Shown here piece by piece: positions 6,062 to 29,209 of a stretch of 64,000 nucleotides of DNA. Origin of the DNA: Alphaproteobacteria bacterium (GTDB taxonomy: Bacteria > Pseudomonadota > Alphaproteobacteria > Caulobacterales > Parvularculaceae); NCBI GenBank assembly GCA_016125425.1, contig WGLT01000013.1, positions 1 to 64,000 on the forward strand, in the 5' to 3' direction. The notes beneath the pieces are model-generated. The model did not search any database. It was not told the DNA's origin and worked only from the letters and a program-made list of their open reading frames with translations. Each line of letters starts with the position of its first letter. Position 1 is the first letter of the stretch. A program made the position numbers and the translations under genes.

Positions 6062-7684
6062 TTATTGTCCCGGAATGTTGTCCGTCTTCTCGATGAAGGC
6101 TGCGACATTGTCGTGAAGCTGCTTCAGCGACGCCTCATGCGCGTAGACCATGTGGCCCGACGGATAGAAGGCGAATGAAATATTCGACATCAGCGATTTC
6201 GGAATCGGCAGATGGCGCATTTCGTAGACGCCTTCGAAGAACGGCGTTGCAAGATCATAATAGCCGGCGTTCAGGAACACCTTGAGATCGGGATTGTACT
6301 TCATCGCGAAAGCGAGGTCCGGCATGACATTGGTCGCGCCGGGGAAGGCGAATCCCATGCCGGGCTGCTTGTGCTCGAAGCTCCAGCCGGGGAAGACTTC
6401 GGCGAAGAGCTTGTAGGCTTTTTTCTCGCCGTATTTCAGCTCGGTGCGCACATAATTGTTGAAGGCCGAGACATAGGCCGCGCTGATCGCCGCTGATTGC
6501 GGATCGTAATCCGAACGTTGACTCAACGGATCCATGCTCGGACCGGAAAAGCGCGTGTCGAGGCGGCCCGTGGTCAGATCCGCATCATCCTGAAGGCTCT
6601 TTTCGAATTCGCCGCCGTCGATGCGCAGGTTCGCCTTCTTGATGTAGGACACCGGCAGGCCGGTATATTCGTGCAGCTTGTTGGCGATTTCATCGAATTT
6701 CGCCTCCGGCAGCGCCGAGCCGGCGCCGAGCGCCAGCGCATAATCGTTCATAGCGAAGTTTTCGACTTCCTTCAAAAGCGCCTGCAAATCCTTCGGCGCG
6801 GAGTCGGGCAGCTTCTTGTGGTACCACGCCGTCGCCGCATAGGTCGGCAAGGCGACTTCATAGGCGACATCGACGCCCGGATTGGTCGTCGGCCCGTCGA
6901 CGCTGAGATCAAAATTCAGGATCTGCGACAGCAGAATGACGCCGTTCAGGTCGACCGCGTAATCATTGGCGAGGATCGCCGAGAGCACCGCCGAACGCGT
7001 CGTGCCGTAGCTTTCGCCGAACAGATATTTCGGCGAGTTCCACCGATTATATTTCGACAGAAACTTGGTGATGAACTCGGCGAAGGCGTGACCGTCCTGG
7101 TCGATGCCGTAAAACGCCTTCTTCGCGTCTTTGCCCCGGATGCGGGAGAAGCCTGCGCCCGGCGCGTCGATGAAAACCAGATCGGACGCGTCGAGCAGGC
7201 TGTAATCGTTGTTGATGAATTTGTACGGGGCGGCCGGCGTGTGAGTGTCATCCGCAGTGACGATCCGCTTCGGACCGAAGGCGCCCATATGCAGCCACAC
7301 CGTCGCCGAACCAGGCCCGCCATTATAGATAAAGGTCACAGGCCGCGGACCTGTCCCCTTCTTGAAATAAGCGACGTAGAACATCGACGCCTCGGCGGGC
7401 TGCTCCTTGTCGTCTTTGTCCTTGTCGCCTCCGCCGGATTTTTCGGCGGCCGCGTCGTCCCAGCCCTCGGCGTGGACGAGAATCGTTCCGGCGACAGCCT
7501 GGTAGTCGATGCGCTTGCCTTCGACGGTGGCCGAGCCCTCGGTCGTCGAGTCCGGCGCGTTGAAGAAAGAAGCGGCATCCGTTTTCGCCGCATCGGCGGC
7601 GGCGTCCTTGCTGTCCGGCGCGGCGGCGGCGGCGGCGATCAAGACAAACGAACAAGCGGCGGTCAAAAGAGCGACACGCTTCAT
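6062..7684 (-). CDS. Secreted S10-family serine carboxypeptidase
   Basis: This 540-residue protein has a Sec signal peptide (residues 1-22, ending AAAAAAP). Peptidase S10 blocks follow: FIYNGGPGSATVWLH (118-132, oxyanion region), FIDAPGAGFS (171-180) and the nucleophile motif LFGESYGTTRS with Ser225. The charge-relay aspartate is in YYDLATPF and the histidine in PSGHMVY near the C-terminus. A Lys/Asp-rich insert lies at about 82-98. Family members remove C-terminal amino acids from peptides in the periplasm. The ATG has a GGGAG ribosome-binding site. It is divergent from the SRPBCC gene across about 250 bp in which I see no other gene. Confidence 0.92.
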   Translation of the reverse strand: MKRVALLTAACSFVLIAAAAAAPDSKDAAADAAKTDAASFFNAPDSTTEGSATVEGKRIDYQAVAGTILVHAEGWDDAAAEKSGGGDKDKDDKEQPAEASMFYVAYFKKGTGPRPVTFIYNGGPGSATVWLHMGAFGPKRIVTADDTHTPAAPYKFINNDYSLLDASDLVFIDAPGAGFSRIRGKDAKKAFYGIDQDGHAFAEFITKFLSKYNRWNSPKYLFGESYGTTRSAVLSAILANDYAVDLNGVILLSQILNFDLSVDGPTTNPGVDVAYEVALPTYAATAWYHKKLPDSAPKDLQALLKEVENFAMNDYALALGAGSALPEAKFDEIANKLHEYTGLPVSYIKKANLRIDGGEFEKSLQDDADLTTGRLDTRFSGPSMDPLSQRSDYDPQSAAISAAYVSAFNNYVRTELKYGEKKAYKLFAEVFPGWSFEHKQPGMGFAFPGATNVMPDLAFAMKYNPDLKVFLNAGYYDLATPFFEGVYEMRHLPIPKSLMSNISFAFYPSGHMVYAHEASLKQLHDNVAAFIEKTDNIPGQ

Positions 7685-25529: not shown

Positions 25530-25793
25530 ATGGGGTCGCCGGAAACAGATTGGAGTGCAGCGATAGACGCTCTTACTGTATTCGGGCTTGTCGCCGTCAC
25601 GCTGATGCTGGTTTTCTACGCGCTGGAAAGCCGCAGCGCCTGGTTCATCCTGGCCTTCGCAGGCGCCTGCGCGCTCGGTTCCGTCTACGGATTCCTACAA
25701 GGCGCCTGGCCGTTCGGGCTTGTCGAAGCGGTATGGGCCGTCGTCGCCGCCGCGCGCTGGCGTAAGGCGCGCGTCAGGAATGTTTCGGAATAG
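25530..25793 (+). CDS. Small conserved membrane protein
   Basis: This 87-residue protein has two predicted membrane helices: ALTVFGLVAVTLMLVFYALE (about 14-33) and AWFILAFAGACALGSVYGFL (about 37-56), then a hydrophobic stretch GLVEAVWAVVAAARW. Short proteins with this pattern are common as unannotated conserved proteins in alphaproteobacteria. ATG 25530 is chosen because the segment before it shows no conservation pattern; 25488 is an alternative. Its last 20 bases overlap the end of the convergent merR. Function unknown. Confidence 0.65.
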   Translation: MGSPETDWSAAIDALTVFGLVAVTLMLVFYALESRSAWFILAFAGACALGSVYGFLQGAWPFGLVEAVWAVVAAARWRKARVRNVSE

Positions 25794-26229
25794 AGTCGGC
25801 GGATGACGGATCGAGGGCGTCGAGAATGGCGCACTCCGGAACCGCCTCGCCCGAACAGTCGCGCATGTTCCGCATCAGAAAGCTTTCGAGTTTTTGCAAA
25901 TCGGCGATTTTTGCACGGATCGATTCAAGATGACGTTCTGTGATCGCGCACACATCGGCGCAAGTGGCGACGCCGCGGTCGCCGAGACCGAGGAGCGCTC
26001 TGATCTCCTTCAGACTAAACCCGAGTTCGCGCGCGCGCCGGATAAAGGCGAGACGGCGCATTTGCGCCGCCCCGTAGGCCCGCCTGCCGCCTGACGTACG
26101 TGGCGGCGGCGGCAACAGGCCGATCTTTTCGTAATAGCGTATGGTCTCAATATGGACGCCCGTACGCCGCGACGCCTCGCCGATCGGCGAGGCGTCGCCT
26201 CGCGCATCCGTGATCGCTGCATCGTGCAA
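25774..26229 (-). CDS. merR: MerR-type mercury-responsive regulator
   Basis: This 151-residue protein has the MerR winged helix at about 15-80 (SPIGEASRRTGVHIETIRYY, then FIRRARELGFSLKEIRALLGL). The C-terminal dimer helix carries CADVCAITERHLESIRAKIA. Cysteines at this helix, in RDCSGEAVPEC and around it, align with the Hg(II) ligands Cys82, Cys117 and Cys126 of classical MerR. The only start giving a full DNA-binding domain is TTG at 26229. It is divergent from the gst-merT gene, with a MerR-type dyad promoter between them. Confidence 0.87.
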   Translation of the reverse strand: MHDAAITDARGDASPIGEASRRTGVHIETIRYYEKIGLLPPPPRTSGGRRAYGAAQMRRLAFIRRARELGFSLKEIRALLGLGDRGVATCADVCAITERHLESIRAKIADLQKLESFLMRNMRDCSGEAVPECAILDALDPSSADSIPKHS

Positions 26230-26235
26230 AAGATC

Positions 26236-26266
26236 TTGCTCCTGTAGCCGCTACAGGAACCAGATT
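26236..26266 (+). promoter_or_regulatory. MerR-type mer promoter/operator
   Basis: A -35-like TTGCTC (26236-26241) and a -10-like CAGATT (26261-26266) are separated by 19 bp, the long spacer typical of MerR-activated promoters. The spacer contains the dyad TCCTGTAGCCGCTACAGGA (26240-26258), which has perfect 9-bp arms around one base. The dyad is placed as in known MerR-family operators, so MerR is expected to bind and distort it upon metal binding. Confidence 0.75.
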
Positions 26267-26324: not shown

Positions 26325-27365
26325 ATGATCGACCTTTACGCCGCCAGCACGCCGAACGGACGCAAGGCGACGATCATGCTCGAAGAAACAGGACTTCCCT
26401 ACCGGCTGCACAAGCTGGAGCTGTCGGCGGGCGATCAGCGGCGGCCGGAATTCCTGCGCATTAATCCCAACGGCAAGATTCCGGTCATCGTCGACCATGA
26501 CGCCGGCCTAACCATCGCCGAATCCGGCGCCATTCTCAGCCACCTCGCGGAAAAATCGGGAAAGCTGCTTTCGTCTGAGCCGGCGCAAAGAATCGCCGCG
26601 CTGCAATGGCTGTTCTTTCAGGTCGGCGGGCTCGGGCCGATGGCCGGGCAATATAATCACTTTCGCCGCCATCGCCCCCGCATCGACTACGCCTTCAACC
26701 GTTATCGCGACGAGGTGTTGCGATTATGCGCCGTCATGGACGGCGCGCTCGCCAGGAGCGATTTCATCGCCGGCGCCTATTCGATCGCCGACATCGCTTT
26801 ATCGCCGTGGATGCGCGCCCTGAAGCGCTGGGACATCTCTTTCGCGGACTATCGAAATGTGACGCGATGGTTTGAAAGCCTGACGCGACGCGAGGCCGTT
26901 ATCTGGGGCTTTGCGGCGCTCGAAACCGACAGAGAGGATAATATGACGGACGAAACGCACGGAGCCGCCAAAAAAACCGCGCCCAGCGCGGCGCCGTTGA
27001 ATAGCGGCCCGACGAAGCGGCGCGCGCAGAAAATCGCCGCCGCCGGCGGACTTCTTGGCGCGATCGCCGCCTCGTCCTGCTGCGTTGTTCCCTTGGTCCT
27101 CGTCAGTCTTGGCGCGTCCGGCGCATGGATTGGAAGCTTGACAGTGCTCGAGCCCTACAAACCGGTCTTCATCGGCGTTGCTCTGGTCTTCATTGCGGCA
27201 GGATTCTGGCGCGTCTATTTCAGGAAGGCGGAACAACCTTGCGAAGACGGAACCCTGTGCGCGCGGCCCGATTCTGCGCGCCTGACCAAAGCGGCGCTTT
27301 GGATATCGGCCATTCTGGTTTTGCTGGCGGCGACGACTGACTACTGGGCGCCGCTGTTTTATTGA
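26325..27365 (+). CDS. merT: Glutathione S-transferase fused in frame to mercuric ion transporter MerT
   Basis: One open frame of 346 codons joins two proteins. Residues 1-200 are a GST: thioredoxin-like half with NPNGKIPVIVDHD (48-60) and the glutathione-binding ES in AESGAIL (66-72), then an all-helical half. Residues 207-346 are MerT: TM1 with vicinal Cys252-Cys253 (SSCCVVPL), a second helix (283-298), the loop pair Cys306/Cys312, and a third helix (322-340). No stop separates them. Codon 207 is an ATG (26943) preceded by GAGAGG, so MerT could also be made alone (140 residues). ATG 26325 has AAAAGGAAG upstream. It is the first gene of the mer operon; MerT imports Hg(II) for reduction by MerA. 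Confidence 0.87.
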   Translation: MIDLYAASTPNGRKATIMLEETGLPYRLHKLELSAGDQRRPEFLRINPNGKIPVIVDHDAGLTIAESGAILSHLAEKSGKLLSSEPAQRIAALQWLFFQVGGLGPMAGQYNHFRRHRPRIDYAFNRYRDEVLRLCAVMDGALARSDFIAGAYSIADIALSPWMRALKRWDISFADYRNVTRWFESLTRREAVIWGFAALETDREDNMTDETHGAAKKTAPSAAPLNSGPTKRRAQKIAAAGGLLGAIAASSCCVVPLVLVSLGASGAWIGSLTVLEPYKPVFIGVALVFIAAGFWRVYFRKAEQPCEDGTLCARPDSARLTKAALWISAILVLLAATTDYWAPLFY

Positions 27366-27380
27366 AAAGGAGCAAATCTC

Positions 27381-27716
27381 ATGAGAAAAATTCTGCTTAT
27401 CGCGGTCGCTGTCGGCGCAGCCGCGCTCGGCGGCTTCGCCGCAATCGCGCGATCCTCGGACGCCGGCGCCGCCGTTCTAGCGTCGGCTGAGAAAGCGGAA
27501 GCGACGGCGCGTTTTTCGATCAAGAATATGACCTGCGCGACCTGTCCGATCTCGGTCAGAAAAGCAATGATGCGCGTTGACGGCGTCAAGTCGGTCACGA
27601 TCGACTTTGACACCAAGATCGCGACCGTCGTTTATGACCCGGCTGTGACGACGCCTGCGGCTATCGCCGCGGCCTCGACCAATATCGGATATCCGGCGAG
27701 CGAGCTGGACGCGTAA
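27381..27716 (+). CDS. merP: MerP-like mercury-binding protein
   Basis: This 111-residue protein has an N-terminal signal or membrane anchor (3-23) and a heavy-metal-associated domain (about 43-110) with NMTCATCP, in which Cys52 and Cys55 are the Hg(II) ligands. MerP binds Hg(II) in the periplasm and passes it to the cysteines of MerT. The gene lies 15 bp after merT with an AAAGGAG ribosome-binding site. MerA here lacks its own heavy-metal-associated domain, so MerP is the only such domain in the operon. Confidence 0.9.
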   Translation: MRKILLIAVAVGAAALGGFAAIARSSDAGAAVLASAEKAEATARFSIKNMTCATCPISVRKAMMRVDGVKSVTIDFDTKIATVVYDPAVTTPAAIAAASTNIGYPASELDA

Positions 27717-27784: not shown

Positions 27785-29209
27785 ATGCCAGACTGTTGCT
27801 CATCTGTCGATCGCGACCGCTATGACCTGATCGTCATCGGCGCCGGCTCGGCGGGGTTTTCCGCCGCGATCACCGCCGCCGAAGAAGGCGCGCGGGTTGC
27901 GCTGATCGGCTTTGGGACCATCGGCGGGACATGCGTCAATGTCGGCTGCGTCCCGTCCAAAACCATGATCCGCGCCGCTGAAGCGCTGCACGGCGCGCGA
28001 GCGGCAAGCCGGTTTCAGGGGATTATAGGCGAAGCGCATATCGAAGACTGGGCCGCGCTCGTGGCGGATAAGGACGCACTTGTTTCAGGTCTGCGCCAAA
28101 AGAAATATGTCGATCTCCTCGGCGCTTATGATTCAATTGATTATCTTGAAGGCGCGGCGCGTCTCGCCAATGGCGGCGTTACGGTCGAAGGCCGCTTCAT
28201 TGCGGCTGAAAAAATCATTATTGCAACCGGGGCGTCGCCGGCGATTCCGCCCATTCCGGGCCTAAATGAAACAGGCTATTTGACCAGCACGACGGCGCTG
28301 GAGCTTTCCGAATCGCCGCGATCTCTCATTGTTGTCGGCGGCGGATATATCGGCTGCGAACTCGCGCAAATGTTCGCACGAGCGGGCGCCAAGGTAACGC
28401 TTGTGACGCGCAGCCGGTTGCTGCCGAAGGCTGAGCCGGAGATTTCAGACGCGCTTGCGGACTATTTGGAGGCGGAAGGCGTCAGCGTGCGTCGCGGTCT
28501 CTCCTATGTCGCCGCCGCAAGAACGGAGGCGGGCGTTTCGCTGACAATTTCCGCTGACGGGCGCGAGGAGACCCTTCATGCCGAGCGCCTGCTATTGACG
28601 ACCGGGCGCAGGGCCAACACCGAAACGCTCGGCCTCCGCGAGGCCGGCGTTGAAACTCTTCCCAATGGCGCCATCGCCGTTGATGCGCGCATGCGCACAA
28701 GCCGGCCCGGCGTCTACGCCGCCGGCGATGTCACGGGACAAGACCAGTTTGTTTACATGGCGGCGTATGGCGCGAAGCTGGCGGCGAAAAACGCACTGAA
28801 CAGCAATTCCTACACATATGAAAATGCGGCGATGCCATGGGTCGTCTTCACCGATCCGCAAGTCGCGGGCGCCGGACTGACCGAGATCGAAGCCGAGGCG
28901 GCGGGCTTCAATGTCAAAACGTCCATAGCGCCGCTCGATCAGGTGCCGCGCGCTCTCGCCGCCCACGATACGCGCGGGCTGATCAAGCTCGTCGCCGACG
29001 CCGATACGGACCGCTTGCTCGGCGCGCAGATTCTGGCGCCGGAAGGCGCGGACTCAATCCAAACCATCGTGCTTGCGCTCAAATTCAATATGACCGCGAC
29101 GCAACTCGGCGAGACGATTTTTCCGTATCTGACGACGGTCGAAGGGCTGAAACTTGCGGCGCAAGGATTCGACAAGGATGTAACAAAGCTCTCCTGTTGC
29201 GCCGGATAG
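27785..29209 (+). CDS. merA: Mercuric reductase
   Basis: This 474-residue FAD disulfide oxidoreductase reduces Hg(II) to Hg(0) with NADPH. The FAD fingerprint is YDLIVIGAGSAGFSAA (13-28), and the redox-active pair is GGTCVNVGCVPSK with Cys50 and Cys55. The NADPH fold is SLIVVGGGYIGCELAQM, and YAAGDVTG binds FAD. The C-terminal vicinal pair Cys471-Cys472 (KLSCCAG) delivers Hg(II) to the active site of the dimer partner and is diagnostic of MerA. The N-terminal heavy-metal domain of many MerAs is absent, but a Cys4-Cys5 pair is present. ATG 27785 is preceded by AGGGGAAG. Confidence 0.95.
   Translation: MPDCCSSVDRDRYDLIVIGAGSAGFSAAITAAEEGARVALIGFGTIGGTCVNVGCVPSKTMIRAAEALHGARAASRFQGIIGEAHIEDWAALVADKDALVSGLRQKKYVDLLGAYDSIDYLEGAARLANGGVTVEGRFIAAEKIIIATGASPAIPPIPGLNETGYLTSTTALELSESPRSLIVVGGGYIGCELAQMFARAGAKVTLVTRSRLLPKAEPEISDALADYLEAEGVSVRRGLSYVAAARTEAGVSLTISADGREETLHAERLLLTTGRRANTETLGLREAGVETLPNGAIAVDARMRTSRPGVYAAGDVTGQDQFVYMAAYGAKLAAKNALNSNSYTYENAAMPWVVFTDPQVAGAGLTEIEAEAAGFNVKTSIAPLDQVPRALAAHDTRGLIKLVADADTDRLLGAQILAPEGADSIQTIVLALKFNMTATQLGETIFPYLTTVEGLKLAAQGFDKDVTKLSCCAG

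Follow-up and report, generated by a model that had tools for sequence, protein, structure and literature searches.

A Nu-class glutathione S-transferase in frame with the mercury transporter MerT, and its possible place in the hand-off of Hg(II)

The window, meaning the whole 64,000-nucleotide stretch of DNA analysed here, contains an open reading frame in which a glutathione S-transferase (GST) is followed, without an intervening stop codon, by the mercury transporter MerT. As the preliminary description had claimed, the GST (codons 1-206) reads straight into MerT (codons 207-346): the frame extends from an ATG at 26325 to a TGA at 27363-27365 and comprises 346 codons with no internal stops in the window sequence, and both domains are complete and intact, each being placed by sequence matches. 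This is a real and unusual open frame, and it most likely represents a genuine fusion. The interpretation favoured here, to which a probability of about 45% is attached, is that an accessory gst from a mercury/metal gene cluster came to be placed behind a mer promoter and had its frame joined to that of merT, a tethered hand-off of Hg(II) by glutathione being the putative consequence. The gene order is merR / gst-merT / merP / merA, and the features of the region are as follows.

25774..26229, minus strand: merR, divergent regulator (Pfam MerR_1 and MerR-DNA-bind)
26236..26266, plus strand: mer-type operator/promoter, with -35 TTGCTC, dyad CCTGTAGCCGCTACAGG, 19-bp spacer and -10 CAGATT
26325..27365, plus strand: gst-merT fusion open reading frame (346 aa, 38.0 kDa calculated)
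26325..26942, plus strand: Nu-class GST domain, codons 1-206 (T9-P10-N11, Q38, K51, I52, E66, S67, R126)
26931..27041, plus strand: linker of low model confidence (AlphaFold2), residues 203-239, around the junction; holds the MerT ribosome-binding site and ATG
26943..27365, plus strand: MerT domain, codons 207-346 (helix 1 with a vicinal CC; PCEDGTLC as second Cys pair)
27381..27716, plus strand: merP, with MTCATC metal site and HMA domain (Pfam), a separate open reading frame
27785..29209, plus strand: merA, core only, without NmerA (CVNVGC site, C-terminal CC)

Within the fusion protein, Pfam GST_N and GST_C are matched inside residues 4-190 and Pfam MerT (PF02411) over residues 233-346, the latter with 110.1 bits against a cut-off of 32.9; the PRK13751 MerT model gives 110.5 bits, below its equivalog cut-off of 150. 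The junction peptide lies around ETDREDNMTDETHG. The further claim that MerT retains its own ATG and ribosome-binding site also holds, since the ATG is found at 26943 behind ACAGAGAGGAT, with a predicted anti-Shine-Dalgarno pairing of -6.5 kcal/mol. Of 881 plus-strand ATGs, 45 pair as strongly or more so, as do 404 of 9,122 sampled positions. The calculated mass of MerT alone is 14.7 kDa.

The genes around the fusion score to varying degrees against curated models: 533.4 bits for MerA (TIGR02053, above the cut-off of 454.45), 119.1 bits for MerR (best NCBIfam model TIGR02051, below the cut-off of 150.85) and 68.7 bits for MerP (TIGR02052, below the cut-off of 92.55). In the control region, the -35 element lies at 26236-26241, the dyad at 26241-26257 and the -10 element at 26261-26266 (TTGCTC-CTGTAGCCGCTACAGGAAC-CAGATT), and 58 bases separate the end of the promoter from the start of the GST. 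The layout TTG-N3-CTGTA...ACA is found in 24 of the 28 merR-merT intervals compared, including that of the window (23 of the 27 others); of the four lacking it, one (98 bases) carries a CTATAG variant and the other three are short, at 14, 14 and 56 bases. According to the accessible text of PMC3737084, the mer cluster of plasmid pMR68, which raised Hg resistance in E. coli, has the operator GCACCTGTAGCCGCTACAGGTTG with a -35 of TTGCAC, a -10 of CATAAT and 19-bp spacing, and the 17-nt dyad of the window is contained within this operator. As a mer-type operator common to the relatives and to pMR68 lies directly upstream of the GST, the latter, judging from the sequence, very probably heads a mer operon as its first gene.

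A GST between merR and merT is found in the window alone among these 28 intervals. Other genes are found in the equivalent slot: in a member of the same family, an unannotated 164-aa open reading frame without a Pfam match lies between the mer promoter and merT (L147, 3098-3592), and in pMR68 orf4 and orf5 occupy the space between operator and merT (PMC3737084, accessible text). Recent import of the whole operon, as judged by GC content, was considered and rejected, because the operon (0.60-0.63) shows no contrast with its surroundings (0.60-0.67). Loss of NmerA was likewise rejected as a special feature of this operon, since 34 of 34 rows of MerA relatives (redundant rows, filtered at >45% identity) also lack it. 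No GST was matched in the fetched stretches of these 34 rows, and hence NmerA loss by itself does not demand a GST.

The best GST model, PRK13972 (YfcG type), matches residues 1-208 with 193.5 bits against an equivalog cut-off of 332; the domain is assigned to the Nu class, like YfcG, and by this model is not a YfcG ortholog. Its nearest solved relatives include 4eci, 4l8e, 6tah and YfcG. Residues T9, N11, Q38, K51, I52, E66, S67 and R126 align with YfcG, and these eight fit the glutathione (GSH) contacts named for NaGSTNu in the accessible text of PMC5892560; the TPN motif and the GSH1 and GSH2 contact residues of the Nu class are present. The same text reports, for one Nu-class GST, either two GSH or a single GSSG bound to each subunit, and states that the Nu-class GSTs tested mostly exhibit disulfide reductase activity and that the physiological roles of the class are largely unknown (PMC5892560). 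The window GST has a single cysteine (C135) and lacks a metal-binding motif of its own, so any handling of Hg by this domain would go via glutathione. The same genome encodes a glutathione synthetase (406.8 bits, cut-off 299.05) and a glutathione reductase (665.4 bits, cut-off 606.05).

In the AlphaFold2 model of the fusion, blocks of the GST have mean pLDDT values of 88-97 and residues 203-249 fall below 50, the protein thus being modelled as a folded GST followed by a loose linker. MerT helices are placed at 240-268, 273-299, 317-336 and 338-345, the blocks past residue 250 averaging 54-76; this part of the model is weak, only two other MerT rows being present in the alignment. The three helices of MerT are therefore to be read as modelled at low confidence, and both Cys pairs were read from the sequence. 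MerT has an N-in topology, with a cytosolic N-terminus, and KRR precedes helix 1 in the fusion; on these grounds the GST would be cytosolic.

The window GST is not a random one, as it belongs to a clade linked to mercury/metal genes. In a tree of 156 sequences it forms a clade of eight with seven others (support 0.977), while an earlier tree of 153, without L206 and L207, gave a support of 1.0 for six; all seven relatives are unfused and none adjoins MerT. The nearest GSTs are gammaproteobacterial, at 53-70% identity (G1124/L038, G1125/L039, G1126/L050 and two in G1127/L198). Around these recur, not all in each case, genes for ArsR-like, YnfA, dihydrolipoyl-dehydrogenase-like and MerR-type proteins, for the membrane protein MemA and for the cysteine-pair membrane protein MemCC, the last two matching no Pfam family above cut-off. 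A cluster of YnfA / ArsR-like / MemA / GST / MemCC recurs in L038 (3539-7922), L050, L039 and L198. At the edge of the L198 contig (L054), the gene after a GST encodes a small cysteine-pair protein that is 39% identical to a Pfam-confirmed MerF and has no match to a MerF model. Of the two Salinisphaera GST copies on this contig, that of L054 is split over two frames and may be damaged, while the second is intact (L054 337-968 / L198 16732-17333).

The two remaining loci of the clade, L206 and L207, were found by GST similarity alone. In L206 (G1755:C5, 6394-9641), the GST is divergent from merR (155.2 bits, cut-off 150.85), which precedes merA (554.2 bits, cut-off 454.45). In L207 (G1751:C5, 2032-8477), merR (173.4 bits) and a merA with an HMA domain (531.6 bits), both above cut-off, are followed by a cysteine-pair membrane protein and a glutathione-reductase-like gene (319.7 bits, short of its 480-bit cut-off), with the GST lying about 0.4 kb further along. 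A match to MerR, MerT, MerP or to MerA-like, ArsR-like, MemA or MemCC proteins within 3 kb was found at 8 of the 158 distinct GST places in the fetched loci, exactly those of the clade, and at none of the other 150, whose flanks reach at least 3 kb on both sides in 57, at least 1.4 kb in 124 and less in 26; the MemA, MemCC and ArsR-like queries came from a clade locus, which favours matches there, and L206 and L207 were not used to pick queries. Ten non-clade GST places no more distant (52-54% identity) than the outer members of the clade are without such neighbours (the E. coli yardstick aside), and at L096 a MerA-like match (32%) lies just beyond 3 kb of the GST. As most members of the clade also neighbour ArsR-like and YnfA genes, its substrate could be another metal.

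Searches for a second GST-MerT fusion with the whole protein as query returned none in the family (62 genomes), in samples of the class (385) and phylum (398), in the gammaproteobacterial orders of G1126 (250) and G1127 (85) or in the Gammaproteobacteria, the class of G1125 (303). These figures refer to overlapping samples, some of which count the window's own genome, and in the class, phylum, G1126-order and G1125-class searches to the best five to eight candidates scored per genome, with matches listed below 1e-58 to 1e-63. For the order sample (398), MerT was the query and the length of the open frame the test; seven MerT matches beyond the window lie in frames of more than 200 codons, not one of them a GST fusion. 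In G356 (328 codons) and G051 (322), what precedes a MerT-like protein is a frame open by chance; in G011, G001 and G196 (217-223), nothing upstream matches a GST; and in G031 (251), MerT reads into MerP. In the G257 frame (228 codons; L209, G257:C26), MerT continues in frame into a metal-binding domain resembling MerP, which would seem to make it a case of the known MerTP type.

Among PLSDB plasmids, no record of the best 5,000 covers 80% of the query at a single site, a criterion by which adjacent unfused copies should likewise have been caught, and a scan of viral sequences gave a single GST-only match and no fusion. Both domains were not found together in any of 79 loci representing the best 80 of 195 relatives, identified with six peptide patterns in the genomes of 84,980 species. 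Nor did the matches listed from the open-licence PMC literature include any description of a GST-MerT protein, in agreement with the preliminary description, which knew of no mer operon with this arrangement. That description had also named homologues always occurring as separate genes as evidence against the fusion, and this is borne out in so far as every relative found is unfused; the frame in the window stands as a singleton. Hence GST-MerT is not a recurrent family of two or more instances in the samples and best matches, and this one instance could be the result of a chance stop-loss.

Under the favoured reading, an accessory gst of the small mercury/metal-cluster clade would have come to lie downstream of the MerR-controlled promoter and ahead of merT, with which its reading frame would have become continuous. 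Hg(II) would induce the operon through MerR, and ribosomes would make the 38-kDa GST-MerT along with some free MerT from the retained start. With the N-terminus of MerT taken to be cytosolic, the GST would sit where Hg(II) exits the transporter, binding glutathione at its cytosolic mouth on a flexible linker of approximately 37 residues. Its site might supply or hold two glutathiones as Hg(II) is released, such that the metal leaves as GS-Hg-SG; alternatively, the GST might reduce Hg-induced mixed disulfides. MerA, having no NmerA receiving domain, would then reduce Hg(II) to Hg(0). Where MerA lacks NmerA, free cellular thiols are usually credited with carrying Hg(II) from MerT to MerA, so a hand-off by small thiols would be expected in this operon. 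Two GSH per subunit, as reported for a Nu-class GST (PMC5892560, accessible text), would suit a bis-glutathione metal complex.

This reading is favoured by the gene order, the operator, the open frame, the intact domains and the neighbourhoods of the clade, all of which are read directly from the DNA, and further by the GSH-contact residues retained in the GST, the glutathione synthetase and reductase of the genome, the MerA without NmerA and the modelled folded GST with its loose linker. Against it are the singleton status of the fusion, the seven unfused clade relatives away from MerT, the one cysteine and missing metal-binding motif of the GST, the scores of MerR, MerP and the PRK13751 MerT model below curated cut-offs, and the stop beside the MerT start in either neighbouring frame. 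In the accessible parts of two reports, yghU with a putative MerR2 site shows more than twofold Hg induction in P. pseudoalcaligenes (PMC10433974) and gst genes are tentatively placed under CueR-like sites (PMC1526738); these would fit GSTs as part of metal responses, the tether itself not being addressed. A bolder reading, which seems rather unlikely, would make the GSTs of the clade enzymes dedicated to mercury clusters, with Hg(II) bound in the form of a bis-glutathione complex, and would see the one in the window as welded to MerT for a transporter-coupled glutathione hand-off like that of NmerA on MerA.

The in-frame join depends on few bases. Homology of the GST frame extends to approximately codon 201 (L039 shares GF..LET), and thus the join rests on about 15-18 nt in which an indel could fall. 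The other two frames have a TAA at 26939 and a TGA at 26944 (an ATGA overlap), just before and over the MerT start, so that a one-base indel within the final few codons of the GST would leave the two as ordinary neighbouring genes. Such an indel, in evolution or in assembly, could account for the join, as could a substitution in the stop codon. It is nevertheless improbable that an assembly or sequencing error has joined two genes that in the organism are separate and probably coupled in translation, the stop codon of the first lying just ahead of the MerT start or overlapping it. The two nearby stops, the 31-contig draft state of the source genome and the absence of the join from every relative found would agree with such an error, as would the origin of a second in-frame mer join, that of G031, from another draft (of about 290 contigs). 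However, the error would have to hit a 15-18 nt stretch containing no homopolymer of four or more (the longest in 26900-26960, GGGG, lies upstream of it), both domains are otherwise undamaged, and ATGA occurs by chance at many starts. The G031 join, from the same family, takes MerT into MerP in a 251-codon frame on the minus strand (L146, G031:C187, 2230-2350), and is itself either a real MerTP-like join or a one-base error. This read-through shows that such joins occur in the family's assemblies, and does not tell the cause of that in the window.

If the fusion is real in the DNA, it could still be a neutral stop-loss, with free MerT as the transporter and the GST as a general GSH-dependent disulfide reductase repairing Hg/thiol stress; this is a serious possibility that falls somewhat short of even odds. 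It would be in keeping with the start and ribosome-binding site that MerT retains, with the separate genes of all clade relatives and with the MerT-MerP read-through of G031, as well as with the accessory genes found elsewhere between promoter and merT (the 164-aa frame of L147, and orf4-orf5 of pMR68 in the accessible text of PMC3737084) and the mostly disulfide reductase activity reported for the Nu-class GSTs tested (PMC5892560, accessible text). The recurrent linkage of the clade to mercury/metal genes speaks instead for a GST with a metal-specific role; it does not speak for the tether. The ArsR-like regulators, YnfA and unnamed membrane proteins among the neighbours of the clade might suggest a GST that has a target different from inorganic Hg, such as another metal or an organic compound, and that hitch-hikes in the mer operon; this is highly improbable, given that the window operator is of the mer type, that the structural genes are mer genes, and that L206 and L207 carry merR and merA.

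The closest precedent for the arrangement is the MerTP fusion (NCBIfam NF033556), in which MerT is also joined in frame to another mercury-handling domain within a mer operon. There the partner is MerP and follows MerT, whereas here a cytosolic enzyme precedes it; NF033556 scores 43.7 bits, over MerT only, against a cut-off of 180, and MerP is a separate open reading frame at 27381. NmerA, an HMA-type domain with a Cys pair carried on MerA, is likewise tethered and is regarded as passing Hg(II) on toward the MerA core, which may make the GST functionally alike; unlike NmerA, the GST lacks a Cys pair and sits on MerT. YfcG, YghU and NaGSTNu share the class, the TPN motif and the GSH contacts, but are stand-alone proteins for which no transporter fusion was found in the present searches. 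The pMR68 cluster (merR-orf4-orf5-merT1...) resembles the window in the 17-nt dyad and in having extra genes between operator and merT, but orf4 is hypothetical, orf5 resembles a phosphoribosyl-AMP cyclohydrolase, and no GST or fusion is reported in the accessible text of PMC3737084.

A GST fixed to the importer, together with a GST clade near mercury genes, would make the step from MerT to MerA genetically testable for Hg(II), and could lead to a physiological role for Nu-class GSTs. A glutathione-linked enzyme inside mer operons is already represented by merK, a glutathione reductase, and glutathione can potentially transfer Hg2+ to MerA (PMC11227200, accessible text); unlike the GSH-binding transferase of the window, which is attached to the importer, merK is a separate reductase. 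L207 may be compared with merK in that a reductase-like gene and a GST both lie near merA, and L206 and L207 possibly represent an undescribed mercury cluster with a glutathione arm. By eye, L206 has at 7035-7210 a MerR-type promoter, with the dyad ACTACG...CGTAGT and a 19-bp spacer, that seems to face the GST.
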